This document shows, piece after piece, positions 679 through 42,747 of a stretch of DNA of 42,747 bases. Within the stretch, counting starts at the first letter, position 1, and each line of letters opens with the position of its first letter. Below the pieces are notes generated by a model. It was given only the letters and a program-made list of their open reading frames with translations, was not told the origin of the DNA and did not search any database. Location of the stretch: contig JALSSR010000191.1 in the NCBI GenBank assembly GCA_026984135.1, positions 1 through 42,747 on the forward strand, read 5' to 3'. The position numbers and the translations under genes are program-made. The stretch comes from Bacteroidales bacterium (GTDB lineage Bacteria > Bacteroidota > Bacteroidia > Bacteroidales > JAADJA01).

Positions 679-698
679 TATATTTTTGTGTAAATTTG
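667..698 (+). promoter_or_regulatory. Bacteroidota-type promoter of the DUF433/DUF5615 pair
   Basis: ATTG at 667-670 and TAAATTTG at 691-698 are 20 nt apart and match the -33 (TTTG/TTG) and -7 (TAnnTTTG) elements of the Bacteroidota primary sigma factor. Transcription would start near 705, about 13 nt before the ATG at 718. The -33 element overlaps the last codons of the preceding gene. Confidence 0.55.
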
Positions 699-717
699 CG
701 CTTTAAATTTATGCTAT

Positions 718-1319: not shown

Positions 1320-1342
1320 ACACGATTTTTGACATTTGAACT

Positions 1343-1990: not shown

Positions 1991-2007
1991 CAAAATACCC
2001 CAAAGAT

Positions 2008-4728: not shown

Positions 4729-4820
4729 AGGAATATTAATTTAAGATTACTGTAAAAGTAAATAACTAAAGTTTTTCAGTTCCAAAAGTACTTAAAATTC
4801 TTAAATGTCAAGATGGAAAA

Positions 4821-7161: not shown

Positions 7162-7176
7162 TTACGCGAAAATATA

Positions 7177-8157: not shown

Positions 8158-8357
8158 TGTTAATAATTTTTGATAGCTACGGTGTTTTTAAACCGGCATT
8201 ATTTTTATTTTCCGGTTCTTCCTTGCCATAATAAAAAATGTATTTTAAAATTTCCTTTTTTTCTAATCATAAAATAAAAAACAATTTCCTTTTTCCCCTT
8301 ACAAAATTACAAAGGTAGAGTAAAACCCGAGTATAAAAACCTAACTGTTTCCATACT

Positions 8358-9800: not shown

Positions 9801-9871
9801 AAATGTACTTTTTAGGTCAAATATAAACTGCAACAATGGTTAAGGGAAACATCCCGTTCTGAAACCGGGTG

Positions 9872-9904
9872 CAAAGGTATGAATTATTGTTCAAAATATT
9901 CAAA
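9872..9904 (-). promoter_or_regulatory. Promoter of the TolC-HlyD-ABC operon
   Basis: On the minus strand, TTTG (9904-9901) is followed 21 nt later by TACCTTTG (9879-9872), matching the Bacteroidota -33/-7 pattern. The leader to the ATG at 9800 would be about 65 nt and contains a small GC hairpin (CCCG...CGGG, near 9852-9869). The -33 box lies inside the 3' end of the GH114-like gene. A second -7-like box (TATATTTG, 9825-9818) has no good -33 partner. Confidence 0.5.
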
Positions 9905-13374: not shown

Positions 13375-13479
13375 AAAAAAAATTTTTTCTTTGCGAAAGT
13401 ATCACTCTTTTAACTATCCTGAAAAATTACAAAACGGTTTTTTTAACAAAATAGTGTTGATAATCGGAATGCTTTATAA

Positions 13480-13842
13480 TCACTCTTGATTTTCTTTATT
13501 ATATCCCAGCCACCAAAACATCAACCCGGGAACAAGGAAAGGCAGTGCATACACCAGCATAGCGACCGAATCTTTGAAGCCGCCCTGATAGAGCAGGTAA
13601 AGCCCCATAAGAACACCGCTTACCGACATAATAATACCGCCCTCTTTTTCTCTTTTCCAGGCAAACATATATCCGATAAAAGCAAACCCGAGCAAAAGCA
13701 TCATTGATTGCAATTGTCCCGTCTTATCATTGAATAGATCGGGTATTCCTTCTCCAATAAAGAACATCCCGAAAAAAAGCACTGACAGCCCTCCGAAAAT
13801 TCGGGCTATCCAGCGTGTTGTTTTTATGCCGCTATCATTCAT
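13480..13842 (-). CDS. Small four-helix membrane protein, unknown function
   Basis: 120 residues, with four hydrophobic segments at about 12-30, 44-60, 67-86 and 92-114, separated by short charged turns (KREKEGG between helices 2 and 3). The N-terminus (MNDSGIKTTRWIARI) and C-terminus (YNKENQE) are polar. The ATG at 13842 is unambiguous. Similar small proteins of unknown function occur widely in Bacteroidota, but I cannot name a family with confidence. It is flanked by a DUF3078 gene 105 nt downstream and a 508-nt non-coding stretch upstream, so it is probably monocistronic. Confidence 0.7.
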   Translation of the reverse strand: MNDSGIKTTRWIARIFGGLSVLFFGMFFIGEGIPDLFNDKTGQLQSMMLLLGFAFIGYMFAWKREKEGGIIMSVSGVLMGLYLLYQGGFKDSVAMLVYALPFLVPGLMFWWLGYNKENQE

Positions 13843-14350
13843 CTTTGAAAATATTTGTTAATATATGATATTAAACACCTTATAACCTATCATTTTCCAA
13901 GTTACTTCCCAACGCCATCCCTTATACAATACTTTTCGACTAAAACATTTCATTGGTTTTTATGCTTGAATGCGTTGTTAATGCAACAATCCTTCATCGT
14001 CCACTAATCCCAATAACAATAAAATATTTTTTTTAGCCATTTAAAATATAGCAAAGGTAGTTATGTTTTTGCAAATATCCGTTAATAATAATTATATTAA
14101 TTTATTTCGTGAATTAACCGGTTTTAAACAGATTAGATTGTTTTAACTTGAAATTTCTTTATTGGTTTTGGAAAAAATTGTACTTTTGCTTATAAATAAA
14201 TAATTGTTCAAACGGAAAGGTGAATTTTTTTTTGATAACTTTGCACTTGAAAGCCACCAATGGTAAAACGCTGAATGTATGCATAGGCAACAAATTTTGT
14301 TTACTTTCGTTTAATAATATATATTATCAAATGTTAAAGGAGATTGTCAA
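13843..14350. other. Non-coding AT-rich stretch before the Xre/RES module
   Basis: No convincing gene is seen in these 508 bases. Two -7-like boxes, TACTTTTG (14181-14188) and TAACTTTG (14236-14243), point toward the Xre/RES genes, but neither has a proper -33 partner. The last 25 bases hold a 20-nt-spaced duplication of TCAAATGTTAAA (14327 and 14347). Composition is strongly AT-rich and resembles an acquired island edge. Confidence 0.5.
14336..14342 (+). promoter_or_regulatory. Strong Shine-Dalgarno before the Xre antitoxin
   Basis: AAAGGAG lies 8 nt before the ATG at 14351. Good Shine-Dalgarno sequences are rare in this window, as is usual in Bacteroidota. The motif lies inside a competing mini-ORF (14331-14357, MLKEIVKC) that begins at a duplicated start region and overlaps the antitoxin start out of frame. 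Confidence 0.5.
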
Positions 14351-14818
14351 ATGTTAAAAGAAAAGGAAGAACTCAGAAGAACTACGGAACGTTATGAGAC
14401 ACTCATACGCATTCTTGGTAAAAAATATATTAAAGATGAAATTGAAAGTCCTTTTGATTTCATAACGATTGCTACTAAAGGATTAAATTCTAATGTTATT
14501 CTTAATTTTAGAAAATATTTTGAAATTTCCCGTGGATTTACAGCAGAATTACTAAACATTTCCGAACCAACTATTTATAGGTGGATTCGTATGGATAAAA
14601 AGTTAGAAAGAAATTATTCGATACAACTTTTTGAATTGGCTGACTTATTTCTTTATGGATCTGAAGTTTTTGAAAATAGAGAAAATTTCTTCAAATGGCT
14701 TGAGCTGCCGAACACAGCTATTGGCGGTTTGGAACCAAAAGAATTATTAGAAGTTCCCGGAGGCATATCTAAGGTTAAGGACTTGTTAGGAAGAATTGAC
14801 TACGGTGTTTATAGTTAA
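14351..14818 (+). CDS. Xre/MbcA/ParS-type antitoxin of a RES toxin
   Basis: 155 residues. A degenerate Xre-type helix-turn-helix is visible at about 55-90 (FEISRGFTAELLNISEPTIYRW). It is followed by the toxin-binding (DUF2384) domain with the typical segment L-F-L-Y-G-S-E-V-F-E-N-R-E-N-F-F-K-W-L-E-L-P-N-T-A-I-G-G and the ending K-E-L-L-E-V-P-G-G-I-S-K-V-K-D-L-L-G-R-I-D-Y-G-V-Y-S, which in this family inserts into the RES active site. The gene ends 6 nt before the RES toxin gene. Together they form a RES-Xre module in which the antitoxin represses its own operon. Start choice is supported by a strong Shine-Dalgarno sequence at 14336-14342. Confidence 0.9.
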   Translation: MLKEKEELRRTTERYETLIRILGKKYIKDEIESPFDFITIATKGLNSNVILNFRKYFEISRGFTAELLNISEPTIYRWIRMDKKLERNYSIQLFELADLFLYGSEVFENRENFFKWLELPNTAIGGLEPKELLEVPGGISKVKDLLGRIDYGVYS

Positions 14819-14824
14819 CCAATT

Positions 14825-15277
14825 ATGATTGTCTATAGAATAACTAAAAGCAAAAGAGCTTCTGATATTAGCGGTTATGGTGCATCTATTTATCCGGGAA
14901 GATGGAATAAGAAAGGGATGTTTGTTTTATATACGGGGGAAAGTAAAGAAATAGCTTTGCTTGAAACCATTGTTCATATTCCGCCAATGATGTCACCGGA
15001 CTTAGATATTTTAACTATTGAAATACCTGATAACTCTATAACTGTAATAACTCCGGAAGATTTACCTGAAAATTGGCACCAATTCCCGGCTCCGACAGTT
15101 CTTTCCGACATAGGTAAAAAATGGATGGATGAGGGTAAAACAATAGCGCTAAAGGTGCCAAGTAGTATAGTTCACTCGGCGTATAATATCATTCTTAATT
15201 GTAAACATAAGGATTATAAAACGGTGAAAATTCTTAGCCGTAAGAAATTTTATTTTGATTCCAGATTACGTAAATAA
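14825..15277 (+). CDS. RES domain toxin (NAD+-degrading)
   Basis: 150 residues, full length for the family. The three name-giving residues are recognisable as Arg26 in Y-P-G-R-W-N, Glu47 in A-L-L-E-T-I-V-H and Ser113 in V-P-S-S-I-V. The C-terminal N-P-x-H motif is altered here to N-C-K-H. RES toxins deplete cellular NAD+ by phosphorolysis or hydrolysis and are neutralised by the Xre partner encoded immediately upstream. The gene lacks any membrane or secretion signal, so it acts in the cytoplasm of the producer. Confidence in the family is high; activity of this copy is not proven because of the altered tail motif. Confidence 0.9.
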   Translation: MIVYRITKSKRASDISGYGASIYPGRWNKKGMFVLYTGESKEIALLETIVHIPPMMSPDLDILTIEIPDNSITVITPEDLPENWHQFPAPTVLSDIGKKWMDEGKTIALKVPSSIVHSAYNIILNCKHKDYKTVKILSRKKFYFDSRLRK

Positions 15278-15333
15278 AACTTTGCTAAGTATAGTGTCGC
15301 AGAGTGAAGGCGGACCATACCGAAAGAGATCAA

Positions 15334-15350
15334 GTTTGCTTTTTGCAAAC
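15334..15350. terminator. Possible bidirectional terminator hairpin
   Basis: GTTTGC-TTTTT-GCAAAC forms a 6-bp stem between the convergent RES toxin and S9 peptidase genes. No long U-tract follows on either strand, so strength is doubtful. Confidence 0.3.
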
Positions 15351-15369
15351 CTGACAAGAACCGGTTAAT

Positions 15370-17454
15370 CTACTTCAGCCATTTATCGAGCCAGTCGAAG
15401 AAGGTTCTTTGCCAGAGTATCCCGTTTTGCGGTTTCAGTACCCAATGGTTTTCGTCAGGGAAAAAAAGAAACTCTGCCGGTACATCATTTAAAACCGCTG
15501 CATTGAAAGCGCTCATTCCCTGTGTGTAAGCTATTCTGTAATCTTTCTCACCGTGTATAACCAAAATAGGAGTATCCCATTTATCAACAAAGAGATGAGG
15601 AGAGTTGGCATAAGTACGTTGCGCAACTTTATTTTTTTTGTCCCAGTAAGGACCGCCGAGGTCCCAATTTACAAACCACATTTCATCGGTCTCGAGATAT
15701 TGGGCTTCAAGGTTGAACATACCGTCGTGAGAGATAAATGCCTTAAAACGACCGTCGTGGTGTCCGGCAAGCCAATATACGGAAAAGCCGCCGTAGCTGG
15801 CACCGACGGCACCAAGATGATTTTCGTCAACAAAAGGCTCTTTTGCCATCTCATCAATAGCACTAAAGTAGTCTTTCATATTTTGTCCGCCGTAATCACC
15901 GCTGATCTGCTCATTCCATGCAACACCGAATCCCGGCAATCCCCGTCTGTTGGGTGCTACAACTATATAACCGTTGGCAGCCATCATCTGAAAATTCCAG
16001 CGGTACGACCAAAACTGACTAACCATTCCCTGCGGTCCTCCCTGGCAATATAGTAGTGTCGGATACTTTTTTGCAGGATCGAAGTGCGGAGGATAGATGA
16101 TCCAGGTTAGCATATCTTTGTTGTCGGTTGTTTTTATCCACCTGCCTTCAACCTTACCCATTGTCAACTGATTCAGTAAATCTATATTTATAAAACTGAT
16201 CTGAGTAGCATCCCCGGTCTTTACATCAACGAAATAAATCTCCGTCGGCATAGACATTGACTGACGGGTTGCTATCAGCTTGTTTCCTGCTGTTGCCACC
16301 GACCTGTAATTGTGGACACCTTCTGTCAAGGTAATTATTTTTCCGCTTTTCAGGTTCAACTTGTAGATGTCAATATTTCCGTGCCATTCACTTGTAAAAA
16401 AGATATCTTTTCCGTCTTCGCTCCATACCAATCCGTGGGCATTTTGGTCAAAATCTTTTGTGTAGTAAGTTGTTTCCCCGGTTGCCAAATCAATAACAAA
16501 AAGTCTGCTTTTATCCGATTCATAGCCGTCGCGTTCCATGCTTTCCCAGGCAATCTTTTTTCCATCAGGAGAATAGACGGGATTTACATCATATCCCTGC
16601 ATGCCTTCGGTAATGTTTGTTGTTTTGCCCGATTCCACATCATAAAGATAAATATCCGAGTTTGTGGAAAGAGAGTACTCTTTACCCTTTTTCTTCCGGC
16701 AGGTGTAAGCTATTGTTTTACCGTCGGGACTCCAGTTTATCTGCTCCAGGCCGCCAAAGGGTTTCATTGGCGATTCATAGGGTTCGTCCTTCATCAGGTC
16801 AACACTGTTGGACACACTATTGCCGTCATAATCGGCAACAAAAATATGACTGTAACTGTCAACCCAGGTATCCCAATGCCTGTACATCAAATCGGTGATT
16901 ATTCTGCCTGAAGCCTTGTCAAGATCGGGATAAATATCGTGTGCCGTGGGATGTTTAGGTACTTCAAAAGTATAAAGAATCCTTTTTTGATCGGGAGAAT
17001 ATTTGAATCCCGTTATTCCGCCTTCAATATTTGAGATTTGCTTTTTACTGCTCCCGTCGGGATTCATTTCCCATAGTTGCAGAGAGCCGCCTTCGGAGGA
17101 GATATAGCCTATTTTTTTCCCGTCGGGGCGCCAAACGGCATTGAACTCACTCTTTGGTGTTTTTGTGAGTTGTTTGAAATCTTTTCCGTCAACACCAATG
17201 GAATAAAGGTCGCGGTTACCCTTATTCTGCTCTTTACTGTAGTAACTGACACCGAACAAGACCGTTGACTTGTCGGGCGAAACCTGAATGTCGCTTACAC
17301 GTCCGAAAGACCATAAAACTTCGGGAGTCATTAGGTCGGAATTGAGTTTAAGGTCGGGTTTTCCGATAATGTTGTTATTTTGTGCATCCGCATAGGTTGC
17401 CGAAAAAATCCAAGTTGTCGAAATCAATAAAAATAAAACAAATTTTTTCATCAT
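15370..17454 (-). CDS. S9 family (prolyl oligopeptidase/DPP-like) serine peptidase
   Basis: 694 residues, with a signal peptide (MMKKFVLFLLISTTWIFSATYADAQ), so probably periplasmic. Residues about 40-420 form a WD40-like/PD40 beta-propeller with repeated S-P-D-G-K or R-P-D-G-K turns. Residues about 440-694 are the alpha/beta-hydrolase domain with the triad Ser553 (GASYGGFS), Asp638 (GEKDYR) and His670 (DENHWV). Size and motifs match dipeptidyl peptidase 5-like or acylaminoacyl-peptidase-like enzymes, which in asaccharolytic Bacteroidota release dipeptides in the periplasm. It stands alone on the minus strand. Exact cleavage specificity is inferred only by family resemblance. Confidence 0.9.
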   Translation of the reverse strand: MMKKFVLFLLISTTWIFSATYADAQNNNIIGKPDLKLNSDLMTPEVLWSFGRVSDIQVSPDKSTVLFGVSYYSKEQNKGNRDLYSIGVDGKDFKQLTKTPKSEFNAVWRPDGKKIGYISSEGGSLQLWEMNPDGSSKKQISNIEGGITGFKYSPDQKRILYTFEVPKHPTAHDIYPDLDKASGRIITDLMYRHWDTWVDSYSHIFVADYDGNSVSNSVDLMKDEPYESPMKPFGGLEQINWSPDGKTIAYTCRKKKGKEYSLSTNSDIYLYDVESGKTTNITEGMQGYDVNPVYSPDGKKIAWESMERDGYESDKSRLFVIDLATGETTYYTKDFDQNAHGLVWSEDGKDIFFTSEWHGNIDIYKLNLKSGKIITLTEGVHNYRSVATAGNKLIATRQSMSMPTEIYFVDVKTGDATQISFINIDLLNQLTMGKVEGRWIKTTDNKDMLTWIIYPPHFDPAKKYPTLLYCQGGPQGMVSQFWSYRWNFQMMAANGYIVVAPNRRGLPGFGVAWNEQISGDYGGQNMKDYFSAIDEMAKEPFVDENHLGAVGASYGGFSVYWLAGHHDGRFKAFISHDGMFNLEAQYLETDEMWFVNWDLGGPYWDKKNKVAQRTYANSPHLFVDKWDTPILVIHGEKDYRIAYTQGMSAFNAAVLNDVPAEFLFFPDENHWVLKPQNGILWQRTFFDWLDKWLK

Positions 17455-17566
17455 TATAAATTTAAAAGTTCATATCCAATTCATTTATTTGGGCTTGCTA
17501 AAGTAGTCATTTTTGATAAAAAATACCGTTTCCGTTTTAAAATCCCGAAAAATTACTGTATGTTCG

Positions 17567-18793
17567 CTAACTAAACCTTATGGCTTTCACAGGAGAAATC
17601 TTTGTAATTATATAAGTTGGCAGAATAAGCATCAGAGATGTGACAATCAGAGTTCCGAGATTAATAATTAAAAGGTGCGATAATTGAAGGTTCACAGGTA
17701 CTTCGGAAAGATAGTACGATTCCTGATTAAGCTTGAATACTCCCGTAGTAATTTGCAAAAAACAGAAACTCAAAGCAATAACGTTTCCCCAAATCAGTCC
17801 TTTACCAATGATGTAAACTGCGTTATAAACAAATATTTTTCTGATACTTCCGTTATTAGTACCGAGAGCTTTCAGGGTTCCAATCATATTTGTACGTTCC
17901 AGAATAAGGATTAGCAGTGTTGAAATCATTGTTATTCCGGCAACCAAAACCATCAATGCAATGATTATCACCACATTAATATCCTGTAGTTTAAGCCATT
18001 CGAATATTTGAGGATATAATTGAACAATAGTCTTTGATTTAAGTTTATACCCGATAACTTTGTTTACAACATCTCCCATACGGTCAATATCTTTAAAATT
18101 ATCAACAAACACTTCAAACCCGCCGACCTCGTTATCATTCCATTTGTTCAGCTTGCGAATATGGTGAATGTCGCCAAAGACAAACATTTTGTCAAATTCA
18201 TTAAGTCCCGTTTCATATATTCCCGAAATATTAAACTTCCTCCCTCTTGGTTGCAACTCGTCCTTAATAATAAAATACATTCTTAAAGGATCTCCGACTT
18301 TCAATCCTAATTTTGAAGCAATGTATTTTGATACAATGACATCATTTGAAACAGCCGAGTCCGAAACCTGAAAGAGATGTCCGGCAACCAATTTATCTTT
18401 AAAAAAAGACCGGTCGAAATCACTTCCGACACCTTTCAGCACAACACCTTCGATTTGATTTTTTGTTTTAATGATTCCGGCTTTTTGTGCAAATATCTGA
18501 ATATGCTTTATTCCTTCCACAGAGTCAAGGCCGGGATAAAAAGGCTGCTTCATATCAACGGGTGAAGTTTCATAGGAAGAGTTAACCTCATAACTGCTGA
18601 TTTGAATATCGGCTCCGAATCCGATAACCTTGTCGCGAATTTGATTTTGAAACCCGGTAACTATCGCAACGGAAACAATCATAGCCGCCAATCCAAGCGC
18701 AACACTGATAACGCCTAACCGCACTATGGGCTTTGAAAAGCTGTTACCTCCCGCCGAAAAAATCCTGTTCGCTATGAAAAACTCGAAATTCAA
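17567..18793 (-). CDS. LolC/LolE-type (FtsX-like) ABC permease
   Basis: About 408 residues. Four membrane segments in the order TM1 (about 25-50), a long periplasmic MacB-like domain, then TM2-TM4 in the C-terminal third, ending with T-K-I-S-P-V-K-A-I-R-F-S. The S-P-V-K/A-x-R-x ending is typical of FtsX-fold permeases. LolC/E homologues extract lipoproteins from the inner membrane. There is no usable ATG near the N-terminus. A TTG at 18793 yields M-N-F-E-F-F-I-A-N-R-I-F, which matches how relatives begin; another TTG at 18811 would add six residues. No LolD ATPase is adjacent, which is usual for this Bacteroidota gene. Role in lipoprotein sorting is family inference. Confidence 0.85.
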   Translation of the reverse strand: MNFEFFIANRIFSAGGNSFSKPIVRLGVISVALGLAAMIVSVAIVTGFQNQIRDKVIGFGADIQISSYEVNSSYETSPVDMKQPFYPGLDSVEGIKHIQIFAQKAGIIKTKNQIEGVVLKGVGSDFDRSFFKDKLVAGHLFQVSDSAVSNDVIVSKYIASKLGLKVGDPLRMYFIIKDELQPRGRKFNISGIYETGLNEFDKMFVFGDIHHIRKLNKWNDNEVGGFEVFVDNFKDIDRMGDVVNKVIGYKLKSKTIVQLYPQIFEWLKLQDINVVIIIALMVLVAGITMISTLLILILERTNMIGTLKALGTNNGSIRKIFVYNAVYIIGKGLIWGNVIALSFCFLQITTGVFKLNQESYYLSEVPVNLQLSHLLIINLGTLIVTSLMLILPTYIITKISPVKAIRFS

Positions 18794-18896
18794 ATCTTTT
18801 ATTTTTTGCAAAAATATTAAAATATACCGCTTCCGGACGATTAAAATTTTTAAGCTGTTTTGGAGGTTTTTAGTAATATTGTGAAAAATTTTAATT

Positions 18897-33137: not shown

Positions 33138-33390
33138 CAGAACATTGGACGCATATCTTAGTTCTCTGGAATTAACTGAGAAATTGTCAGGGATATTGGA
33201 CGGGTGGAACAGTTCTTCACAGGAGAAACTGGCAAAGCGGATTGAAAGTCTTAAAAGAACTCTTTCAACCCATATTGATGATATGTTGAAATCGGACCCT
33301 GATTATTTTATAAACGAAACGGAAAAGGAACGACTAAACAGGGTTCTTAATGAAAGAACAAATAAGTTAAATAGATATTTAAACGGGTAA
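33127..33390 (+). CDS. Small helical protein of unknown function inside the dcw cluster
   Basis: 87 residues, charged and predicted all-helical (segments about 5-50 and 62-86), with no signal or membrane segment and no family I recognise. It starts inside the last codons of murG (11-nt overlap), which argues that it is translated by coupling. Its stop codon TAA is formed by the first bases of the tandem-repeat array (GGTAAGGCC), so the present C-terminus (NRYLNG) may have been shaped by arrival of the repeats. The usual neighbour of murG here would be murC. It may be a lineage-specific divisome or wall protein, or a remnant. Confidence 0.6.
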   Translation: MINNRTLDAYLSSLELTEKLSGILDGWNSSSQEKLAKRIESLKRTLSTHIDDMLKSDPDYFINETEKERLNRVLNERTNKLNRYLNG

Positions 33391-33885
33391 GGCCAATCCT
33401 GTAAGGTTTGCGTGAAAGCCTGTGCGAAAGATGAACCTTGCAGGTTTGGGAACTTGGTAAAATGGTAAAATGATAAAATGGAAAAATCGGTAAAGTGATA
33501 AGGCCAATCCTGTAAGGTTTGCGTGAAAGCCTGTGCGAAAGATGAACCTTGCAGATTTGGGAAAATGGTTAAATTGTTAAAGTGGTAAGGCCAATCCTGT
33601 AAGGTTTGCGTGAAAGCCTGTGCGAAAGATGAACCTTGCAGGTTTGGTAAAATGGTAAAATGGTAAAATGGTAAAATCGGTAAAGTGATAAGGCCAATCC
33701 TGTAAGGTTTGTGTGAAAGCCTGTGCGAAAGATGAACCTTGCAGGTTTGGGAAATTGGTAAGATGGTAAAATGGTTAAAACGGTAAAGTGGTAAGGCCAA
33801 TCCTGTAAGGTTTGCGTGAAAGCCTGTTCGAAAGATGAACCTTGCAGGTTTGGGAACTTGGTAAAATGGTAAAATGATAAATTAA
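33386..33885 (+). repeat. Five-unit tandem repeat array between murG-orf and murC
   Basis: A conserved core of about 60 bp starts with GGCCAATCCTGTAAGG at 33391, 33502, 33589, 33692 and 33795 (spacings 111, 87, 103, 103). Each core carries an inverted repeat: CCTGTAAGGTT pairs with AACCTTGCAGG (10 of 11, the odd pair being G-U in RNA) around a 25-nt loop. Cores are separated by variable linkers made of 8-nt TGGTAAAA-like microrepeats. Single-base differences between units (for example GCAGATTTGG in unit 2, GTGTGAAAG in unit 4, CTGTTCGAAAG in unit 5) show some age. No gene lies in 33391-33894 on the plus strand; long minus-strand frames here are by-products of the repetition. Confidence 0.92.
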
Positions 33886-35283: not shown

Positions 35284-36071
35284 AAAACAGATTCAAAACC
35301 ATACTCTGGATACTTATTATAGCTGGGATAATTGTGCTTGGTGGTTTCATAAATATTGAAAAGAAAAAAACCGTTTGTAAAAAGTTTGAGGTCAATATTG
35401 ATTACGACGGCGCCGACCCGTTAATAACCGTTGACGATATTAAAGGTAAGGTTTACGAGTCTTATGATTCGCTTCTCGGTAAAAGGATAAAGGATATTGA
35501 CCTTGAAAAAATTGAAAGAGTTGTAAATGAAATAAAATATGTGGCAAAAGGTGATGTTTACACAACACTGGGAGGAAATGTCGAAATAAATATCACACAG
35601 CGAAAGCCGGTGGTAAGGATAATAAACAGGAAAAATCAAAGTTTTTATATTGACCGGGAAGGGATACCTTTCCCCCTTGGAAAAGAATACTCATCAAGGG
35701 TTATTGTTGCCAACGGAAATATCGGGGCATCGCTTAACGATACTATAAAATTATATGGTTATGACGATTTCCGGGAGAGGAACATTAGTAATCCGTCGGT
35801 TTTGCAGGAAATTTATCTGTTGGCAACATATATAAACAAGGATGATTTTTTGAGAGCACAGATTGAGCAAATATATGTGAACAAAAGTTCGGAGTTTGAA
35901 TTAGTACCTAAGGTGGGAAGACATATCATCCTCTTTGGCAAGACGGACAATATGGAAAAGAAGTTTGACAAGCTTTACGTTTTTTATAAAGAAGGGTTAA
36001 GCAAAACGGGATGGGATAAATATAAAGTTATAAATTTGAAATATGAGAACCAGGTGGTTTGCTCAAGATAA
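35280..36071 (+). CDS. ftsQ: Cell division protein FtsQ/DivIB
   Basis: 263 residues. A short basic tail, one membrane segment at about 7-25 (ILWILIIAGIIVLGGFI), and a periplasmic region with a POTRA-like part (V-N-I-D-Y-D-G-A-D-P-L-I-T-V-D-D-I) and the beta domain V-E-I-N-I-T-Q-R-K-P-V-V-R-I, Y-I-D-R-E-G-I-P-F-P. FtsQ links early and late divisome proteins. No ddl gene lies between murC and ftsQ. The gene overlaps murC by 4 nt and is followed 48 nt later by ftsA. Confidence 0.92.
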   Translation: MKNRFKTILWILIIAGIIVLGGFINIEKKKTVCKKFEVNIDYDGADPLITVDDIKGKVYESYDSLLGKRIKDIDLEKIERVVNEIKYVAKGDVYTTLGGNVEINITQRKPVVRIINRKNQSFYIDREGIPFPLGKEYSSRVIVANGNIGASLNDTIKLYGYDDFRERNISNPSVLQEIYLLATYINKDDFLRAQIEQIYVNKSSEFELVPKVGRHIILFGKTDNMEKKFDKLYVFYKEGLSKTGWDKYKVINLKYENQVVCSR

Positions 36072-36119
36072 CGGAAAGTATAAAAGAAGCAAAAGAAGTA
36101 TCAATCAATAAATTAACAG

Positions 36120-37430
36120 ATGAAAACATCAGATATCATCGTCGGGTTAGACATAGGAACAACTAAAATCGCTGCAATAGTCGGCAGAAAAAATGAACAT
36201 GGCAAAATTGAAATTCTCGGACATGGCCGGACAGAGTCAATAGGAGTGAAACGGGGTGTTGTCTCAAACATTGAAAACACGGTAAACTCCATTCTTATTG
36301 CTATTGACGAAGCCTCCAAAAAGTCGGGGGTTGACATCAAGTATGTCAATGTCGGGATTGCAGGGCAGCACATCAAAAGCCTGCAGCATCGAGGAGGAAT
36401 AATCCGCGAAAACTACGAGGACGAAATCAGTCAGCACGACGTTGACAGGCTTTTAAACAATATGTATAACCTGAATATGAGTCCGGGTGAAGAAATCATT
36501 GATGTTATTCCTCAGGAATATATCATTGATAATGAGCAGGGTATCAAAGAGCCTGTGGGTATGCTCGGAAATAGTCTCGAAGCAAACTTCCATATTATTA
36601 TCGGTCAAACAACGGCAGCTAAAAACATTTACAAATGCGTCACAAAAGGAGGTCTTGAAGTTGTTGACCTTATACTTGAACCCATTGCTTCGGCACAGGC
36701 GGTTCTGAGTGAAGAGGAAAAGGAAGCAGGTGTGGTACTTGTTGATATCGGAGGCGGCACAACGGATATTGCCATTTTTCAGGATGGCATTATCAGGCAT
36801 ACGGCAGTAATTCCTTTTGGCGGTGATGTCATTACCGAGGATGTAAAAGAGGGTTGCACCATAATCAGAAAACATGCCGAGGAATTGAAAGTGAAGTTCG
36901 GATCTTCACTCGCAAGCGAAAACCGTGATGACGAGATCGTAGCTATTCCCGGCCTGCGCGGAAGGCCTCCGAAAGAGATAAGCCTGAAGAACCTGGCAAG
37001 CATCATTCAGGCAAGAATGGAGGAGATAGTCGAACATATCTATTATGAAATAAAAAATTCAGGTTACGAGAAAAAGTTGATCGCCGGTATTGTACTTACC
37101 GGAGGAGGAGCATTGTTAAAGCATCTGCCGCAGCTCACCGAATTCATAACGGGAATGGATACCAGAATAGGATATCCCAATGAGCACCTTGCAAAAGACG
37201 TTCCGGAAGAACTTGCAAGTCCCATGTATGCCACGAGTATCGGACTTGTTATTGAAGGGATGGACAGATATAACAAAGAAAAAGAGAATTATCTGAAAAT
37301 GGAGGAAACCCGCGAAGTTGAAGAGGAAGTAAAGGAAAAAGAGGAAGAGACCGAGAGCGATACCGTTAATAAACCTGTCAGTTTTCTTAAAAAAATCCAG
37401 GATTTCTTTGAAAAGGACGGGTTGTCATAG
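36120..37430 (+). CDS. ftsA: Cell division actin homologue FtsA
   Basis: 436 residues. Nucleotide-binding motifs of the actin fold are visible: G-L-D-I-G-T-T-K-I near 9-17, V-D-I-G-G-G-T-T-D-I-A near 203-213 and I-V-L-T-G-G-G-A-L-L near 322-331. The SHS2 (1C) domain lies between. After residue about 385 comes a highly acidic linker (E-E-V-K-E-K-E-E-E-T-E), then an amphipathic helix V-S-F-L-K-K-I-Q-D-F-F-E-K that should bind the membrane. FtsA tethers FtsZ polymers to the membrane. It sits directly before ftsZ with a 94-nt gap that may hold a weak extra promoter. Confidence 0.96.
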   Translation: MKTSDIIVGLDIGTTKIAAIVGRKNEHGKIEILGHGRTESIGVKRGVVSNIENTVNSILIAIDEASKKSGVDIKYVNVGIAGQHIKSLQHRGGIIRENYEDEISQHDVDRLLNNMYNLNMSPGEEIIDVIPQEYIIDNEQGIKEPVGMLGNSLEANFHIIIGQTTAAKNIYKCVTKGGLEVVDLILEPIASAQAVLSEEEKEAGVVLVDIGGGTTDIAIFQDGIIRHTAVIPFGGDVITEDVKEGCTIIRKHAEELKVKFGSSLASENRDDEIVAIPGLRGRPPKEISLKNLASIIQARMEEIVEHIYYEIKNSGYEKKLIAGIVLTGGGALLKHLPQLTEFITGMDTRIGYPNEHLAKDVPEELASPMYATSIGLVIEGMDRYNKEKENYLKMEETREVEEEVKEKEEETESDTVNKPVSFLKKIQDFFEKDGLS

Positions 37431-37524
37431 CTCATATAAATATTAACATTCAATTTGTTAATAAAAAATAAATATATGTACCTAATTGAACAGTTTTAAA
37501 TATAATTTTAAATCCAAAAAAATA

Positions 37525-39084
37525 ATGGATAATATGCTTAAATTTGACTTACCGAAAAACCAGTCGGCAATAATAAAAGTTATTGGAGTTGGCGGCGGCG
37601 GAAGCAATGCCGTTTCATATATGTATAATCAGGGAATTAAAGGTGTTGACTTTATAGTCTGCAATACCGATGCGCAGGCTCTCGAGGCAAGTCCCGTTCC
37701 GATGAAAATTCAACTTGGTGAAAAGGGACTCGGTGCCGGTTCCATTCCCGAAGTGGGTAAAGAGGCGGCTACTGAGAATATAGAAGACCTGAAACATATA
37801 CTTGAAAAAAATACCAAAATGGTATTTATTACCGCCGGAATGGGCGGTGGTACAGGTACGGGTGCTGCTCCTGTTATTGCCAAGGTTGCCAAAGAAATGG
37901 GCATTTTGACCGTCGGAATTGTTACAATACCGTTCTCATTTGAAGGAAGAAAGAGAAAAATGCAGGCTGAAGCCGGAATAGAAGAACTAAAGCAAAATGT
38001 TGACACTCTCCTTTTGATATGCAACGACAAACTTCGTGACCTTCATGGTGACCTGAAGCTCTCGGAAGCCTTCCAAAAAGCAGACAATATACTATCCGTT
38101 GCCTCCAAGGGTATAGCCGAAATAATTACCGTTACGGGCTATATAAACGTTGATTTTGAGGATGTTAAGACAGTAATGGAAAACAGTGGTACCGCAATAA
38201 TGGGTTCTGCAACCGCCGAAGGTGAAAACAGAGCTATCAAAGCCGTGGAAGAGGCTCTTTCTTCACCTCTTCTTAACGATAACAATATAAAAGGTGCGAG
38301 TGATATCTTACTCTACATTTCTTCCGGAAATGAAGAGATTACAATGGATGAGGTTTCGGATATCACAGACTATATCCAGGAAGAGGCCGGTCAAAGCGCA
38401 GAGATTATATGGGGTAACGGAAAAGACGAATCACTTGAAAATAAGATTAGCATAACACTTGTGGCTACGGGTTTCAAAAGTGATGAAGACCCCGGAATAT
38501 TGAGAAGACCGGCAAAGAGAAAGATCATTCCTCTGAACACAAAAAAAGAAGAAAAGAGTGAAAGGCCAAGGATTACGGAGCCTATAAACGAAATTACACT
38601 TATTACTCCTAAGAAAGAAGAAGAAAAGGAAGTTTTGAATGCTGAGAATTCCAAAGCGGAGAACAAGACTTTGGAATTCTCTTTTACAGAGGAGAAAATT
38701 GATGTGAAACCGGCCGGTTCCGTTGAGCCGGCAGTTATGAACGAAACAAAGGTTGAGAAACCGGAGCCTAAAGTTTTCAAGCCAATAAATCCCGATACAA
38801 TAGTTAGGAAAACAAACTATGCCGGGGATTTGGAACAGAGCGATATTGAAAAAAAGGCTAAGGAAAGAATCAGAAGATTGAAAGATCTTAGTATCAAACT
38901 GAGGTCGAATGAGGAAATTGAAGAGATGGAAAATGTTCCGGCTTACAAAAGAAGAAATGTAGAACTGTCGGATGTTACCCCCTCCTCGGAATCTGTTGCG
39001 GCACGCTACACTCTTGGTGAGGATGAAAATCACAATCCGGAACTAAAGGAAAACAACTCATACCTGCATGATAATGTTGATTAA
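37525..39084 (+). CDS. ftsZ: Cell division tubulin homologue FtsZ
   Basis: 519 residues from the ATG at 37525 (MDNMLKFDLP); an in-frame TTG at 37486 would add 13 residues with no family support. The GTP-binding tubulin signature G-G-G-T-G-T-G is at 107-113, and the N-terminal G-V-G-G-G-G-S-N-A-V is at 21-30. A long Glu/Lys/Pro-rich linker follows residue about 330, typical of Bacteroidota. The conserved end is P-A-Y-K-R-R-N-V-E-L-S-D-V near 471-483 and NNSYLHDNVD at the C-terminus, the FtsA/partner-binding peptide. It forms the Z ring. yqeY follows 12 nt later. Confidence 0.97.
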   Translation: MDNMLKFDLPKNQSAIIKVIGVGGGGSNAVSYMYNQGIKGVDFIVCNTDAQALEASPVPMKIQLGEKGLGAGSIPEVGKEAATENIEDLKHILEKNTKMVFITAGMGGGTGTGAAPVIAKVAKEMGILTVGIVTIPFSFEGRKRKMQAEAGIEELKQNVDTLLLICNDKLRDLHGDLKLSEAFQKADNILSVASKGIAEIITVTGYINVDFEDVKTVMENSGTAIMGSATAEGENRAIKAVEEALSSPLLNDNNIKGASDILLYISSGNEEITMDEVSDITDYIQEEAGQSAEIIWGNGKDESLENKISITLVATGFKSDEDPGILRRPAKRKIIPLNTKKEEKSERPRITEPINEITLITPKKEEEKEVLNAENSKAENKTLEFSFTEEKIDVKPAGSVEPAVMNETKVEKPEPKVFKPINPDTIVRKTNYAGDLEQSDIEKKAKERIRRLKDLSIKLRSNEEIEEMENVPAYKRRNVELSDVTPSSESVAARYTLGEDENHNPELKENNSYLHDNVD

Positions 39085-39096
39085 AATATTCATAAA

Positions 39097-39546
39097 ATGA
39101 GTCTTGAGAACACAATAAACCGGGATATTAAGTCGGCAATGCTTGCCAAAGACAAAAAGACTTTGGAAGCTTTAAGAGCGGTAAAGGCAGCTATCCTCCT
39201 TGCAAAAACAGATAAAGGAACCGGCGGGGAAGTTGCCGAAGATGCCGAAATGAAAATTTTGCAAAAGCTTGTCAAACAACGCCGGGAATCGGCTGAACTT
39301 TACAAGGAGCAAGGCCGCAACGACCTCGTGGAGGAAGAGATATTCCAGATGAAGGTTATTGAGAAATATCTTCCCGAGCAGATGAGTGAAGAGGATATCA
39401 GAAAGGCTGTCCGGGAAATAATCGCCGAGACAGGAGCCTCCTCAATGAAGGATATGGGACGAACAATGGGAATGGCAAGTAAAAAACTGGCGGGAAAAGC
39501 CGATAATAAAATTGTTGCCGGAATTGTTAAGGAATTGCTGGGATAA
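39097..39546 (+). CDS. yqeY: GatB/YqeY domain protein
   Basis: 149 residues, the normal length. Typical pieces are M-L-A-K-D-K-K-T-L-E-A-L-R near 15-27, V-K-Q-R-R-E-S-A-E-L-Y near 60-70, E-K-Y-L-P-E-Q-M near 90-97 and M-K-D-M-G-R-T-M-G near 117-125. It resembles the tRNA-binding tail domain of the GatB amidotransferase subunit but stands alone; its cellular role is not settled. It follows ftsZ by 12 nt, a common arrangement in Bacteroidota, and is the last gene of the dcw transcript. Confidence 0.93.
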   Translation: MSLENTINRDIKSAMLAKDKKTLEALRAVKAAILLAKTDKGTGGEVAEDAEMKILQKLVKQRRESAELYKEQGRNDLVEEEIFQMKVIEKYLPEQMSEEDIRKAVREIIAETGASSMKDMGRTMGMASKKLAGKADNKIVAGIVKELLG

Positions 39547-39849
39547 ATAAAGTAACCAAAATACCATTAGTCGCCAAAGGCTTGTACACCTGACCGAATG
39601 CTTATAAGCAGTGGCCGGCAATACAAATTATTTTGGAGCCGCTTTATATACCGGCTTTGCCGGGAAATAAAAAAATTTTACATCTGCCTGTCCGAAACAA
39701 AATATTTTGACAACGAAACCTGAAATATCATTGAAATTCGATAGGCACAAGGGTAACAGGTTGAGTTGCATTAATCCATATATGGCTGCCGGTTAATTAT
39801 TAAAACTTTCTCGTCGTCAATCTGAAAATAGCCGTATTCATAGCAAAAT
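39547..39849. other. Non-coding region with hairpins upstream of the recombinase fragment
   Basis: No intact gene. It contains a short GC hairpin CCGGC-TTT-GCCGG (39651-39663) that may end the dcw transcript, although the run after it is A-rich rather than T-rich. It also contains a degenerate palindrome with arms TATAAGCAGTGGC (from about 39604) and GCCGCTTTATA (from about 39638) that recalls attC arms but lacks core sites. Around 39738-39790 one frame reads D-R-H-K-G-N-R-L before a stop, faintly like the N-terminus of the recombinase family, so part of the region may be decayed integrase. Confidence 0.4.
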
Positions 39850-40305
39850 TTGTATTCATCAGGGCTTCGTATTAGTGAATTGATAAGAATGCAAAAAGAA
39901 GACATCCAATTTGACAGAAAACTTGTATTTGTGAGAAGAGCAAAAGGGAATAAGGACAGGTATTCAATACTGTCCGATACAGTTTGTAGTATATTATCGG
40001 ATTATATCGGAGAATACGATCCGAAAAATTATTTGTTTGAGGGGCAATACGGTCAGCAATATTCCGCAACAAGTATTCGTAAAATATTCAACAGAGTGGT
40101 TCGTAAAGCGGGATTACCTAAAAAGGGCGGGCCGCATATCCTGCGTCACAGTTTCGCCACTCATTTGCTTGAACAGGGCGTTGATATACGCTATATACAA
40201 GAGTTGCTTGGGCATAAAAGCAGTAAGACCACGGAAATATATACCCACGTAAGCACAAAAAATATAGGCAATATAAAAAGTCCGGGAGATTTGTTAAAAA
40301 TATGA
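39850..40305 (+). pseudogene. Truncated tyrosine recombinase (catalytic domain only)
   Basis: 151 residues readable from a TTG, with an in-frame stop (TAG at 39841) just upstream. All catalytic residues of a tyrosine recombinase are present: Arg7 (SSGLRISEL), Lys32 or Lys35 (KGNK), His96 and Arg99 (HILRH), His122 (LLGHKSS) and Tyr131 (TEIYTHV). The N-terminal core-binding domain that should precede them is missing. The sequence belongs to a Bacteroidota integrase group marked by Y-L-F-E-G-Q and an I-K-S-P-x-D end; it lacks the extra helix inserted near the third motif of true IntI. It is immediately upstream of, and on the same strand as, the attC-like cassette array. Probably inactive, although a short translated product cannot be excluded. 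Confidence 0.8.
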
Positions 40306-40469
40306 TTGGAGAAATGAAAAAAGTTATTATCTTTGAAGCCTCGACCAATGAAACACAAAATATGGAAATTATTCATTTAATATATAATGCTAAAAATCAA
40401 GCGATTATTAAAAGTAAAGGTTATAATATAAGCGGAATATGCGCACCATTGGTGGTGGATATTCGGTAG
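40302..40469 (+). CDS. Possible 55-residue ORF overlapping the recombinase stop
   Basis: ATG at 40302 overlaps the TGA of the recombinase (ATGA) and the frame stays open for 55 codons to a TAG at 40467-40469, directly at the first cassette core site. The product begins M-I-G-E-M-K-K-V-I-I-F-E-A and is not recognised. Overlap and composition make translation possible, but the short length leaves real doubt. Confidence 0.3.
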   Translation: MIGEMKKVIIFEASTNETQNMEIIHLIYNAKNQAIIKSKGYNISGICAPLVVDIR

Positions 40470-40477
40470 TTACCAGC
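40469..40477 (+). other. Candidate attI-like core site (start of cassette 1)
   Basis: GTTACCAGC, 164 nt after the recombinase fragment. It is the exact reverse complement of GCTGGTAAC at 41289-41297, which opens the palindrome at the end of the same unit. No palindrome partner lies upstream of it, as expected for an attI site rather than an attC site. Cleavage by analogy would fall after the G at 40469. Confidence 0.5.
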
Positions 40478-40636
40478 AATTGGGCTTTGATGAAAAATAT
40501 CGATGAATATTTTCGCTAATATCAAAATTCAGAAAGTGAAAATTTATTGGAAATATGGAAAAAATGAGATTTCGTAAGTTGCTGATTATTAATTACTAAT
40601 TTTGACGTTAGTTGGAATGTTGAAAACTGAACATTT

Positions 40637-41278
40637 ATGAAACAGATAATTACCATTGGATTTATTTTATTAGTCAACTATATATTTGGACAAGAATTCC
40701 AGAATCAAGATAAAACTAAAAAAACATATAAAAAAAGAAACTTCATTTATTATACTCCAAGTGAGTCTGACCAAATAAATGGATTGGCAATTGGAGCATG
40801 GGCTGAAAATACGAGATATTATAAAGATAGTATAGAGGTTAATGGACTTAACATTGAGATTAACCCAGTAATATTCTTTATATATGCAAGAGGAGGTTTT
40901 ACAGTCCCTTATCGAGACAGTATTGAATATTACTTAAGTGAGAAGAGAAAGAATTATTATGGCTTGACTGTAAATGGTTTTAATTTTAGCTTACCTGGTA
41001 CAGTTAATGAGATTTCCACAGTTAATGGGTTAAATATAACATTACTTACAACTAGTATAGGTAGAATAAATGGTTTTTCATTTTCGACATTAACAAATAC
41101 TTGCTATTTATTAAATGGAGTTAGTATTGCAGGTCTATATAATTCCGCAACAAAAGTGAAAGGAATTCAAATTGGATTAATTAATAAGACAACGACTTTG
41201 AAGGGGATCCAAATTGGACTTTGGAACAAAAATGGTAAACGATCTCTACCATTTATAAATTGGCAATTTAAAGAATGA
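40637..41278 (+). CDS. Exported repeat protein resembling the LA_2272 surface-repeat family (cassette 1)
   Basis: 213 residues with the signal peptide MKQIITIGFILLVNYIFGQ. The mature part carries seven or eight short repeats of the type (I/V)-(N/K)-G-(L/F/I)-x-(I/F): I-N-G-L-A-I-G, V-N-G-L-N-I, V-N-G-F-N-F, V-N-G-L-N-I-T, I-N-G-F-S-F, L-N-G-V-S-I, K-G-I-Q-I-G-L-I-N-K and K-G-I-Q-I-G-L-W-N-K. It ends in R-S-L-P-F-I-N-W-Q-F-K. Such repeats suggest a stacked beta (solenoid or barrel) structure at the cell surface or in the periplasm. Function is unknown. It is the only gene of cassette 1, begins 168 nt into it, and stops 10 nt before the attC-like palindrome, as cassette genes often do. Confidence 0.75.
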   Translation: MKQIITIGFILLVNYIFGQEFQNQDKTKKTYKKRNFIYYTPSESDQINGLAIGAWAENTRYYKDSIEVNGLNIEINPVIFFIYARGGFTVPYRDSIEYYLSEKRKNYYGLTVNGFNFSLPGTVNEISTVNGLNITLLTTSIGRINGFSFSTLTNTCYLLNGVSIAGLYNSATKVKGIQIGLINKTTTLKGIQIGLWNKNGKRSLPFINWQFKE

Positions 41279-41288
41279 AAAAACACAG

Positions 41289-41422
41289 CTGGTAACAAAG
41301 GCTAATAAAGCATGGCGGGCGGAAATCGTAAAGCAAGCTTCCGGGCAGTAAACTATTATTGCCGTGCACCGAAATTTTGCCACAATTTAACCGCCCCGCT
41401 TCATAGCCCACACGTTAGCAAC
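41289..41422 (+). other. attC-like recombination site 1
   Basis: Outer cores are GCTGGTAAC (41289-41297) and GTTAGCAAC (41414-41422). Inside, GGCTAATAAAGCATGGCGGGCGG (given here as GGCTA-x-T-AAGC-xx-GG-x-GCGG) pairs with the reverse complement of CCGCCCCGCTTCATAGCCC with few bulges. Total length is about 134 bp, similar to the Vibrio cholerae VCR, which likewise starts TAACAAA and ends CGTTA. The site is GC-rich against AT-rich flanks, and the centre (about 41325-41385) is not palindromic, matching a variable loop. Confidence 0.7.
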
Positions 41423-41457
41423 AAGGCTGACAAAAGAATACACAATAATTTTAAGGA

Positions 41458-42507
41458 ATGATGAAAAAGATATTTTTTTTAGTATTTATTACACAATCAA
41501 TATTTGCACAAGGACAGTATGACTTTGCAATCTATCATGATGGAGATGTTGGTGCTTGGGAAGATGGTGTTGTCGCATTTGAACATTTTTTGGACTGGAA
41601 AGGAGTAACGCATAATCGAGTTACCGCACAAGATATTAATACAATAGTTTTAAAAGATTTTTACACAGCGATATACTTCCCTGGCGGAGATGCAGATTAT
41701 TATAATGCCGATATTAATTCAACAGGAATACTACACATTCAAGACTTAATTTTAGATAATGGTGCATATATCGGCATGTGTGCGGGAGCAGAATTTGCTT
41801 GTGATAAATTGATATGGCAAGGAATTGAAATTGATTATCCGTTAGATTTGTTTCAGGGTGAGGCAATTGGTCCAATTGATGAACTAGCTGTTTGGCCTGA
41901 TTATACTATGACAACTCTATCCATGAACCTTGACGACGAAATAAACCAATTTGAACCGGAAAACGAAGATATGCTATACTGGGGAGGCACTGTTTTTAAT
42001 GCTTATACAAGTACAAATATAGATACAATTGCAACCTTTGATGGATTTTATAATAAACCTGCAATAATAAAATTAACTTATGGAGATGGCAGGGTTTTGC
42101 TTATTAGCCCACATCCTGAAATAGAAGAAGATAGCAATAGAGATGGTGTCAATGTTGCGGAAGAGCTTGACGATAATGGTTCTGACTGGAATTTTTTATG
42201 GACAGCAACAGATTGGCTTTTAGGAAATCCATTATCGGAGCCAAATCCTTTATCAATACTATCACAATCGAATAATCCTAATATTACAATTTACCCAAAT
42301 CCAACAAAGAATATTTTAAATATTTCAATTAGAGATTACCTAAAAATTGAAAAACTAACAATTTATAATCAAATAGGACAAAAAACATTAGACACAAAAT
42401 CAGCAAATAAAGCTATTGACTTGACAGGTTTCCCAAATGGAATGTATTTAGTAGAAGTTGAAATTAATAACAAAAAAATTAGAAAAAAACTATTAATCAT
42501 AAAATAA
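41458..42507 (+). CDS. Secreted BPL-N/GATase1-like protein with T9SS sorting domain (cassette 2)
   Basis: 349 residues with the signal peptide MMKKIFFLVFITQSIFAQ. Residues about 20-255 look like the biotin-protein-ligase N-terminal (BPL_N) domain, a class I glutamine-amidotransferase fold: the nucleophile elbow G-M-C-A-G-A (Cys108) and S-P-H-P-E (His219, Glu221) supply a complete Cys-His-Glu triad, and Y-F-P-G-G-D-A near 73-79 is the oxyanion strand. Residues about 270-349 (Y-P-N-P-T-K-N-I to K-L-L-I-I-K) are a type A T9SS sorting domain, so the enzyme is secreted through the outer membrane. The reaction is unknown. It is the only gene of cassette 2, 35 nt after the attC-like site, and more AT-rich than chromosomal neighbours. 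Confidence 0.8.
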   Translation: MMKKIFFLVFITQSIFAQGQYDFAIYHDGDVGAWEDGVVAFEHFLDWKGVTHNRVTAQDINTIVLKDFYTAIYFPGGDADYYNADINSTGILHIQDLILDNGAYIGMCAGAEFACDKLIWQGIEIDYPLDLFQGEAIGPIDELAVWPDYTMTTLSMNLDDEINQFEPENEDMLYWGGTVFNAYTSTNIDTIATFDGFYNKPAIIKLTYGDGRVLLISPHPEIEEDSNRDGVNVAEELDDNGSDWNFLWTATDWLLGNPLSEPNPLSILSQSNNPNITIYPNPTKNILNISIRDYLKIEKLTIYNQIGQKTLDTKSANKAIDLTGFPNGMYLVEVEINNKKIRKKLLIIK

Positions 42508-42521
42508 AAGAAGAAAGCCCA

Positions 42522-42644
42522 GTTGCTAACAAAAAATATAGTGCATTTGGCAGATAGTGCTAAAATTCAAGATGATAGCAATAAATAAACATAGTGCAAA
42601 ACCGAAAATTAAGTGCTTTGAAATGCCAAACGCACCCTTTAGAT
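42522..42644 (+). other. attC-like recombination site 2, probably degenerate at its 3' end
   Basis: The core GTTGCTAAC (42522-42530) is followed by the arm GTGCATTTGGCA (42541-42552), which pairs 11 of 12 with TGCCAAACGCAC (42624-42635). The expected closing core GTTAG... is replaced by TTTAGAT (42638-42644). The loop region is AT-rich with AGTGC repeats. This may be the worn end of the array or a site of another core type. Confidence 0.5.
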
Positions 42645-42747
42645 TTGCAAAATAAAAAAATAGAGTTCTTTGAAAATATAATGATGTTGTAACAATTTCT
42701 TTTTTTGTTACTTTTTTTCTTTGTTAATAACTTTAATTTTGTTAATA
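42645..42747. other. AT-rich end of window
   Basis: No gene. A -7-like TAATTTTG (42734-42741) points toward a gene beyond the window; no well-spaced -33 partner was found. GTTGTAACAA at 42686-42695 could begin another core site, but its partner would lie outside. Confidence 0.3.

Follow-up and report, generated by a model that had tools for sequence, protein, structure and literature searches.

Probable worn end of an integron-like cassette array with a non-IntI tyrosine recombinase in a Bacteroidales genome

Introduction

Integron cassettes are built such that the 5' end of each cassette pairs with the start of the site at its own 3' end. A further kind of recombinase-linked gene array, the recombinase-associated acquired interbacterial defence (rAID) array, was reportedly described by Ross et al. 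in 2019. In the part of PMC12247911 that deals with them, rAID arrays of gut Bacteroidales comprise a tyrosine recombinase, co-oriented short genes and conserved intergenic motifs, with orphan immunity genes as their cargo. With respect to the integron integrase IntI, passages of two papers (PMC9668308, PMC4792948) describe it as marked by a specific additional domain, the I2 or patch III region, and the passage in PMC4792948 presents this insertion as serving folded attC sites and as not identified elsewhere.

Here we analyze a stretch of 42,747 nucleotides (the window, by which we mean the whole stretch) from Bacteroidales bacterium (GTDB JAADJA01; assembly GCA_026984135.1, contig JALSSR010000191.1), which is contig C191 of a 307-contig assembly and ends where the contig ends. 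Close to that end, a tyrosine recombinase fragment is followed by two single-gene units. An original prediction had proposed that this is either a distinct integron-like system or a relic captured by one, and both halves of that proposal hold. We consider it highly probable, from sequence comparison, that the window contains the worn end of an integron-like cassette array with a non-IntI recombinase, belonging to a non-IntI integron lineage of Bacteroidota. Established from sequence alone are the rule by which cassettes are built, the covariation of the hairpin sites, the association of these sites with the recombinase, and, in relatives, cassette gain or loss at attI and cassette duplication.

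Results

Cassette rule and cassette content

In each unit of the window, the 5' end is complementary to the beginning of the palindrome that closes the same unit. GTTACCAGC (40469) is the exact reverse complement of GCTGGTAAC (41288-41296), with which the first palindrome begins 819 bp downstream. The same exact complementarity holds between GTTAGCAAC (41414-41422) and GTTGCTAAC (42522-42530), with which the second begins. The first core had been described as lacking a palindrome partner; there is no local palindrome at 40469-40477, but an exact partner does exist at 41288-41296. The two predicted single-gene units are present (open reading frames [ORFs] 40637-41278 and 41458-42507), and the expectation that both end in long palindromes is correct in full for the first and in part for the second. 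Site 1 is complete and, in the form of a circle, would contain an R box of 9 bp, then a spacer, an L box of 5 bp and additional stem, while site 2 is broken at its 3' end, where GCAC (42632-42635) is followed by CCTTTAGATTTG and there is neither an L' box nor a GTT core.

The folding energies of the window sites are not above chance, with 38/200 and 70/200 shuffles folding equally well. Arm-to-arm pairing is equalled by 2/1000 shuffles for site 1 in its circular-cassette form, by 32/1000 for site 1 in linear form and by 28/1000 for site 2. We accept the two palindromes as real because covariance model R2, trained without the window, finds both of them (41294-41416, E = 4.4e-6; 42528-42646, E = 0.0017) and nothing else in the window below E = 0.5, the next match being at E = 0.9. 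Scores of model R1 in the window hold by construction, since its training included the window sites.

Across relatives, the cassette rule is obeyed exactly over all five variable core bases, which lie outside the site model, by 79/108 neighbouring site pairs, and with at most one mismatch by 90/108; the control, in which a site's own right-hand core is used, gives 7/170. Pairs less than 1.5 kb apart follow the rule in 63/74 cases, and pairs outside the loci that trained R1 in 59/87. An initial count on 190 typed sites gave 78/109 (control, 8/182) and omitted the repeated-place loci L021, L022, L024, L025, L031, L035 and L133 as well as four weak or partial matches (L044, L069, L288, L276); the final count adds these four and removes L078 (the same place as L284) and the minus strand of L068, and without these removals it would be 80/111. 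Locus L068 (G005:C87:55000-74999) consists of a perfect inverted repeat of 19.9 kb that probably arose in the assembly.

Seven arrays, among them that of the window with its two cassettes, supplied 54 cassettes. All 54 have their largest ORF on the array strand, 48 hold a single ORF, and the median ORF is 198.5 aa long. Pfam matches were obtained for 8/20 sampled cassette products of relatives (PIN, HNH, WGR, S41 peptidase, cation efflux, DUF3828, DUF6756 and Eco57I-type methylase), with those to PIN_12, WGR and DUF3828 falling under Pfam's cut-offs. As predicted, the cores are mostly outside the classical GTTRRRY, which only 12/182 cores of the array family fit. We rejected this trait as a sign of novelty, since the IntI control array L267 also has cores outside GTTRRRY. 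That array obeys the cassette rule as well, so neither rule nor cores separate the two systems, and it is the recombinase that does.

Two other measures were discarded: simple 8-mer chains compared with shuffles were noisy, with most loci not above shuffles and some of those that were (L180, L179, L151, L140 and L264) looking accidental, and a longest-common-subsequence palindrome score was useless. In the array of L138 (Flavobacterium enshiense, 13161-18849), TATATTTG is found in several site loops; it resembles the Bacteroidetes promoter motif, and array sites may thus carry promoters.

Hairpin sites and their distribution

An alignment of 19 sites (two from the window), made by sequence alone and used to build covariance model R1, has a stem of 17 pairs, 14 of which show two-sided changes and none one-sided changes, together with fixed unpaired columns in the stem. 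In a set of 115 sites, none of which trained R1 although their alignment was fitted to R1, 94.9% of cells are paired, compared with 55.1% after shuffling and 30.5-45.8% with a slid partner, and 721 double-sided changes are seen. G-U pairs are rare (39 among 17 pairs x 114 rows, 26 of them at one pair), and because G-U steps are lacking, the pattern suggests that folded DNA, not RNA, is under selection. Model-found sites are about 124 nt long; when all arrays inspected are taken together, site lengths run from about 50 to about 160 nt.

The original prediction expected further copies of the palindrome in related genomes, and R1 matches occur in 69/99 of them. Among 395 genomes of the phylum, 156 have R1 matches: the window's own genome, 51 of its class and 104 of other classes. 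Both genome counts were made with filters that lose weak matches. The predicted ties to variable single-gene units and to the recombinase group are likewise found. The arrays are co-oriented and mostly composed of single-ORF units, and sites are present in 34/37 genomes with an array-type recombinase versus 35/62 without (P = 1.2e-4), at a recombinase threshold (E below about 1e-30) chosen after the list had been seen. Furthermore, 12 of 27 stretches around sites contain an array-type recombinase or a fragment of one and none contains IntI, and among 85 loci at named or plasmid recombinases, 17 contain R1 sites, 41 in total; every one of these follows the recombinase on the same strand and belongs to a Bacteroidota-named record. 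A paired core lies less than 600 bp behind the recombinase in 15/16 loci scanned, by a loose test that admits chance links.

Many array-type recombinases lie within a few hundred bases of the end of their contig, a position that would be expected where assembly stops at a repeated array. On a long contig (L061, genome G080), twelve chained units follow the recombinase.

A recombinase group outside IntI

The predicted tyrosine recombinase fragment is recovered by Pfam Phage_integrase (PF00589, E = 1.5e-40, profile positions 31-170 of 172). It is 151 aa long, has a TTG start and consists of the catalytic domain only, with the R, K, HxLRH, LGH and Y motifs all in place; a stop lies three codons upstream in the same frame, and Pfam gives no SAM-like match in the fragment. 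Searching the 99 genomes with the fragment returned two main kinds of protein, array-type recombinases (about 45-64% identity) and housekeeping Xer (about 34-43%). Identity is 64% to another truncated copy, in genome G003, and about 45-58% to longer array-type relatives.

Judged by profile and motif spacing, the IntI insertion is missing from the array recombinases, in agreement with the original prediction. The match of the integron-integrase profile TIGR02249 to the fragment is split in two (best piece at profile 239-313), and so is its match to 5/5 full-length array recombinases, with 197-220 bits against a cut-off of 265 and the best piece ending at profile 176-180. A split alignment is also obtained between the full-length relative in the window's own genome and the IntI of PDB 2a3v (chain 13-184 and 244-310). 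The distance from K to HxLRH is 64-66 residues in the 30 array-type rows in which the motif was found (it was not found in the remaining rows), compared with 108 and 107 in IntI of L191 and L194.

In full-length members, SAM-like and catalytic domains (35/35) are accompanied at the N-terminus by one or several modules that resemble the HARP domain of SMARCAL1. Pfam reports HARP in 4/35 (best E = 5.8e-6), the top match of the N-terminal domain in a PDB profile search is the SMARCAL1 HARP domain 4o66 (E = 0.026), and the top two Foldseek matches of an 80-residue N-terminal model (predicted local distance difference test score, 92.3) are chains of 4o66 (prob 0.96). On these profile and model matches, a HARP-like domain looks present but divergent. 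Going by titles, 4o66 is a substrate recognition domain and the SMARCAL1 HARP domain dictates annealing-helicase activity. A similar HARP-like N-terminus is seen in recombinases of an archaeal, a spirochaete and a Firmicutes metagenome-assembled genome (L151, L152, L154), with no sites detected at these loci.

The recombinase had been assigned to an XerD-like group; it does belong to a separate, Xer-related group, but this group forms a clade of its own, and its profile scores place it closer to XerA and IntI than to housekeeping XerC/D. The best whole-model Foldseek match is XerA (5hxy), followed by IntI (2a3v). In a tree of 85 rows, 40 array recombinases form one group (support 91/93, 92% of bootstrap trees), the 19 IntI rows are on one side of a 100/100 branch with the array rows outside, and housekeeping Xer (4 rows), which share the catalytic fold with XerA and the array recombinases, make up a separate branch (100/100). 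The tree omits rows shorter than 250 residues (one of 12 "other" rows). The window fragment, too short for the tree, is assigned to the array group by identity, and the own-genome relative L002 (C222) is included. Of 30 IntI loci fetched, 9 gave a sequence by the motif filter, one of which (814 aa) was left out.

The nearest outside group of the array clade, with weak support (81/62), are IS91-linked tyrosine recombinases of Alphaproteobacteria and others, which also lack the IntI insertion. These differ from the array loci in that a Y2/Zn IS91 transposase directly follows the recombinase (2/2 loci tested, L160 and L171, Alphaproteobacteria), no site matches occur in 8 loci, and the similarity starts only at the SAM-like domain. 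Among the plasmid matches listed, H11-H34 represent a TnpF-type recombinase, carried by many Acinetobacter plasmids, that shares about 49% identity with the array recombinase over 61% of the latter.

Traces of cassette movement

The two genomes that contain loci L296 and L297 belong to a single genus. L297 carries a 2,232-bp unit between the attI-like ATAAGCAA and the cassette that directly follows ATAAGCAA in L296, and once this 2,232-bp unit, a single cassette, is taken out by a cut at GTT on both sides, the two loci share 519/548 ungapped identities. At this place L296 retains no more of the recombinase reading frame than its C-terminal end. This pair of relatives is the one natural case in which a cassette is seen to differ at attI position one. 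In addition, one cassette occurs twice in L270, with identity running from GTT to just past the next core and with different neighbours, and L271 and L276 have in common a 3.98-kb block that ends at or near cores, the two loci being otherwise alike only in the recombinase and a short site match. Read from these alignments, the loci show the gain or loss of a cassette at the attI-like position and the duplication of a cassette, with ends at or next to GTT.

Comparison with rAID arrays and classical integrons

The array family has the tyrosine recombinase, co-oriented short genes and intergenic motifs of rAID arrays, of which the window retains a recombinase fragment and two genes. A locus with the rAID layout is found on a Parabacteroides distasonis plasmid (L196), where an array-type recombinase is followed by SMI1/KNR4 and Tdi1-like immunity genes. 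Its intergenic motifs obey the cassette rule in eight chained units, whereas none of 200 shuffles exceeds four; its first link lacks a palindrome and may represent attI or be due to chance. The recombinases of L196 and of a second gut-type locus, L120, for which no array is present in the 1.6 kb available, fall in the array clade. L196 is unlike the other arrays in that the cores of its eight units start with ATT and its sites are about 50 nt long and missed by R1 and R2. Cassettes elsewhere are more varied than the immunity genes of rAID: the window products are of the LA_2272 and BPL_N/type IX secretion kinds, and no immunity family appears among the eight Pfam-matched of 20 relatives' ORFs. 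Full-text literature searches, which did not reach the original rAID paper, found no paper that likens rAID to integrons.

The arrays resemble classical integrons in the cassette rule, in hairpin sites with R box, L box and spacer whose R'' arm is complementary to the cassette's own core, in insertion at attI position one, in single-gene co-oriented cassettes and in variable cores. They differ in that the recombinase lies outside the IntI clade, lacks the IntI insertion, carries a HARP-like N-terminal domain and, in most loci seen, is encoded on the cassette strand.

Two viral contigs carry related loci. L042 (IMGVR_UViG_3300000568_000548, 549-10453), on a viral-classed contig, combines a tape-measure protein with an array-type recombinase and a chain of five cassettes. 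Its sites measure about 89 nt, and the first cassette encodes a caspase-domain protein. In L044 (IMGVR_UViG_3300033566_000060, 1529-5420), the sites are opposite in strand to a short recombinase, which is the divergent layout of classical integrons, and a DNA-methylase ORF (1563-2609) overlaps the first site.

The window copy and its surroundings

The window copy is a relic, at least in part, because its recombinase lacks the N-terminal half and its last site lacks the 3' end (Table 1). With both of these broken, the copy is probably inactive. The same genome holds four further sites, on C91 (two), C235 and C192, and a full-length relative of the recombinase on C222 (L002, 384 aa), which might act in trans on the window copy.

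The DNA of site 1 has no second good copy in the own genome, and the whole of cassette 1 is absent from the 99 relatives, with short partial matches in five other genomes. Cassette 2 was compared with the already fetched loci. Site 2 shares 87% identity over 109 bp with a site at G003:C131, about 1 kb from another truncated recombinase. The truncated recombinases of G003 do not represent an orthologous locus, since beyond the recombinase only a 46-aa piece of secretion tail matched (window proteins from 34000). The ORFs 5' of the recombinase fragment are presumably ftsA-, ftsZ- and yqeY-like, and a tandem repeat at 33379-33881 is built from units of 103/206 bp, with TGGTAAAA repeated inside them.

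Table 1. Features of the recombinase fragment and the two cassettes in the window
Feature	Position	Strand	Basis or remark
Array-type tyrosine recombinase, C-terminal catalytic domain, relic	39850..40305	+	PF00589; N-terminal HARP-like and SAM-like domains missing
attI-like region, putative	40306..40468	+	From position only; 163 bp, recombinase stop to first core, no palindrome
First core GTTACCAGC, 5' boundary of cassette 1	40469..40477	+	Exact reverse complement of 41288-41296
Cassette 1	40470..41414	+	Core-to-core unit by cassette rule
Cassette 1 ORF, 213 aa, LA_2272-type surface repeats	40637..41278	+	NCBIfam NF047436, E 1.4e-12
attC-like hairpin site 1, R'' 41288-41296 to core 41414-41422	41288..41422	+	Model R2, 37.6 bits, E 4.4e-6
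Second core GTTAGCAAC, 5' boundary of cassette 2	41414..41422	+	Exact reverse complement of 42522-42530
Cassette 2, 3' boundary lost, end approximate	41415..42640	+	No GTT core after palindrome
Cassette 2 ORF, 349 aa, BPL_N and type IX secretion tail	41458..42507	+	PF09825, E 4.9e-15; PF18962, E 1.2e-12
attC-like site 2, 3' L' and R' boxes missing	42522..42640	+	Model R2, E 0.0017

Discussion

In the fuller relatives, an array consists of a recombinase (HARP-like, SAM-like and catalytic domains, the last without the IntI insertion), an attI-like core and co-oriented, mostly one-gene cassettes, each beginning with TT plus a variable core and ending in a hairpin site. The R'' arm is the reverse complement of the 5' end of its own cassette, so that a full R box pairs only in the free circle. 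In the proposed mechanism, the recombinase would bind the folded single strand of the site and join it at GTT to the double-stranded attI-like core, by which the cassette would be added at position one, and recombination of site by site would excise or duplicate cassettes. The single-strand substrate, the choice of strand and the role of the HARP-like domain are the parts of this scheme that we infer.

Several observations weigh against reading the window as part of a non-IntI integron lineage. The window alone is weak, since its two-link chain is equalled by 13/200 shuffles, and across relatives 29/108 neighbouring pairs break the cassette rule, with at least two mismatched bases in 18; some of these pairs span sites missed by the model (L138) and others are unexplained. 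Sites are present in 35/62 relatives without a detected array recombinase, 15/27 stretches around sites show no recombinase, and L278, L043 and L044 carry sites on the strand opposite to the recombinase. With respect to the HARP-like domain, Pfam does not list HARP for 31/35 members, and the Foldseek match to 4o66 has an E value of 0.017, a template modelling score of 0.43-0.50 and a root-mean-square deviation of 7.3. Finally, 104 of the 156 site-bearing phylum genomes, few of which were inspected, belong to other classes, where IntI is common, and the IntI locus L261 has four such sites nearby.

These last two points bear on the possibility that the array is a classical integron whose IntI lies elsewhere and that the adjoining Xer-like gene is incidental. 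IntI over the curated cut-off occurs in 105/395 phylum genomes, many of which also have these sites, and attC anatomy is similar; yet TIGR02249 matches nothing in the window's own genome at E = 1e-40, and within the class only G135 exceeds the cut-off, compared with 51 other genomes that hold sites (the class denominator is not listed). R2 sites are absent from 12/13 IntI loci searched, and in the exception, L261, the sites are preceded on the same strand by a 389-bp stretch that matches the array recombinase region of that genome. Since the array recombinases in addition form their own clade, we regard a distant IntI as very improbable.

We attach just as little probability to the idea that the host XerC/XerD mobilizes the modules at dif-like sites. 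The genome does have a housekeeping XerC (L004) and a second Xer (L001), and the linked enzyme is Xer-related. Dif sites are 28 bp long, whereas the sites described here are hairpins of about 124 nt with a fixed anatomy that go with a separate recombinase clade; no dif search was made. Slightly less probable still is that the palindromes are RNA elements (terminators, small RNAs) or scattered short transposable repeats, because, even if hairpins between co-oriented genes could end transcription and many genomes hold few sites, Rfam gives no match at E = 1 in window 36000-42747, G-U pairs are rare, the complementarity of R'' to its own core across a gene has no role in an RNA element, and the insertion at attI includes a gene-sized unit.

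The non-IntI array is the reading that we retain, and it leads to a broader proposal that we favor with modest confidence, only somewhat above even. Bacteroidota may have a second integron lineage, independent of IntI, in which HARP-bearing recombinases of Xer/XerA type that never had the IntI insertion handle folded single-stranded sites, with the HARP-like domain reading the hairpins as the insertion does in IntI. Gut rAID arrays (one tested) and phage arrays (one candidate, L042) would be members of this lineage. The same cassette logic without the IntI insertion would make the role of that insertion testable.

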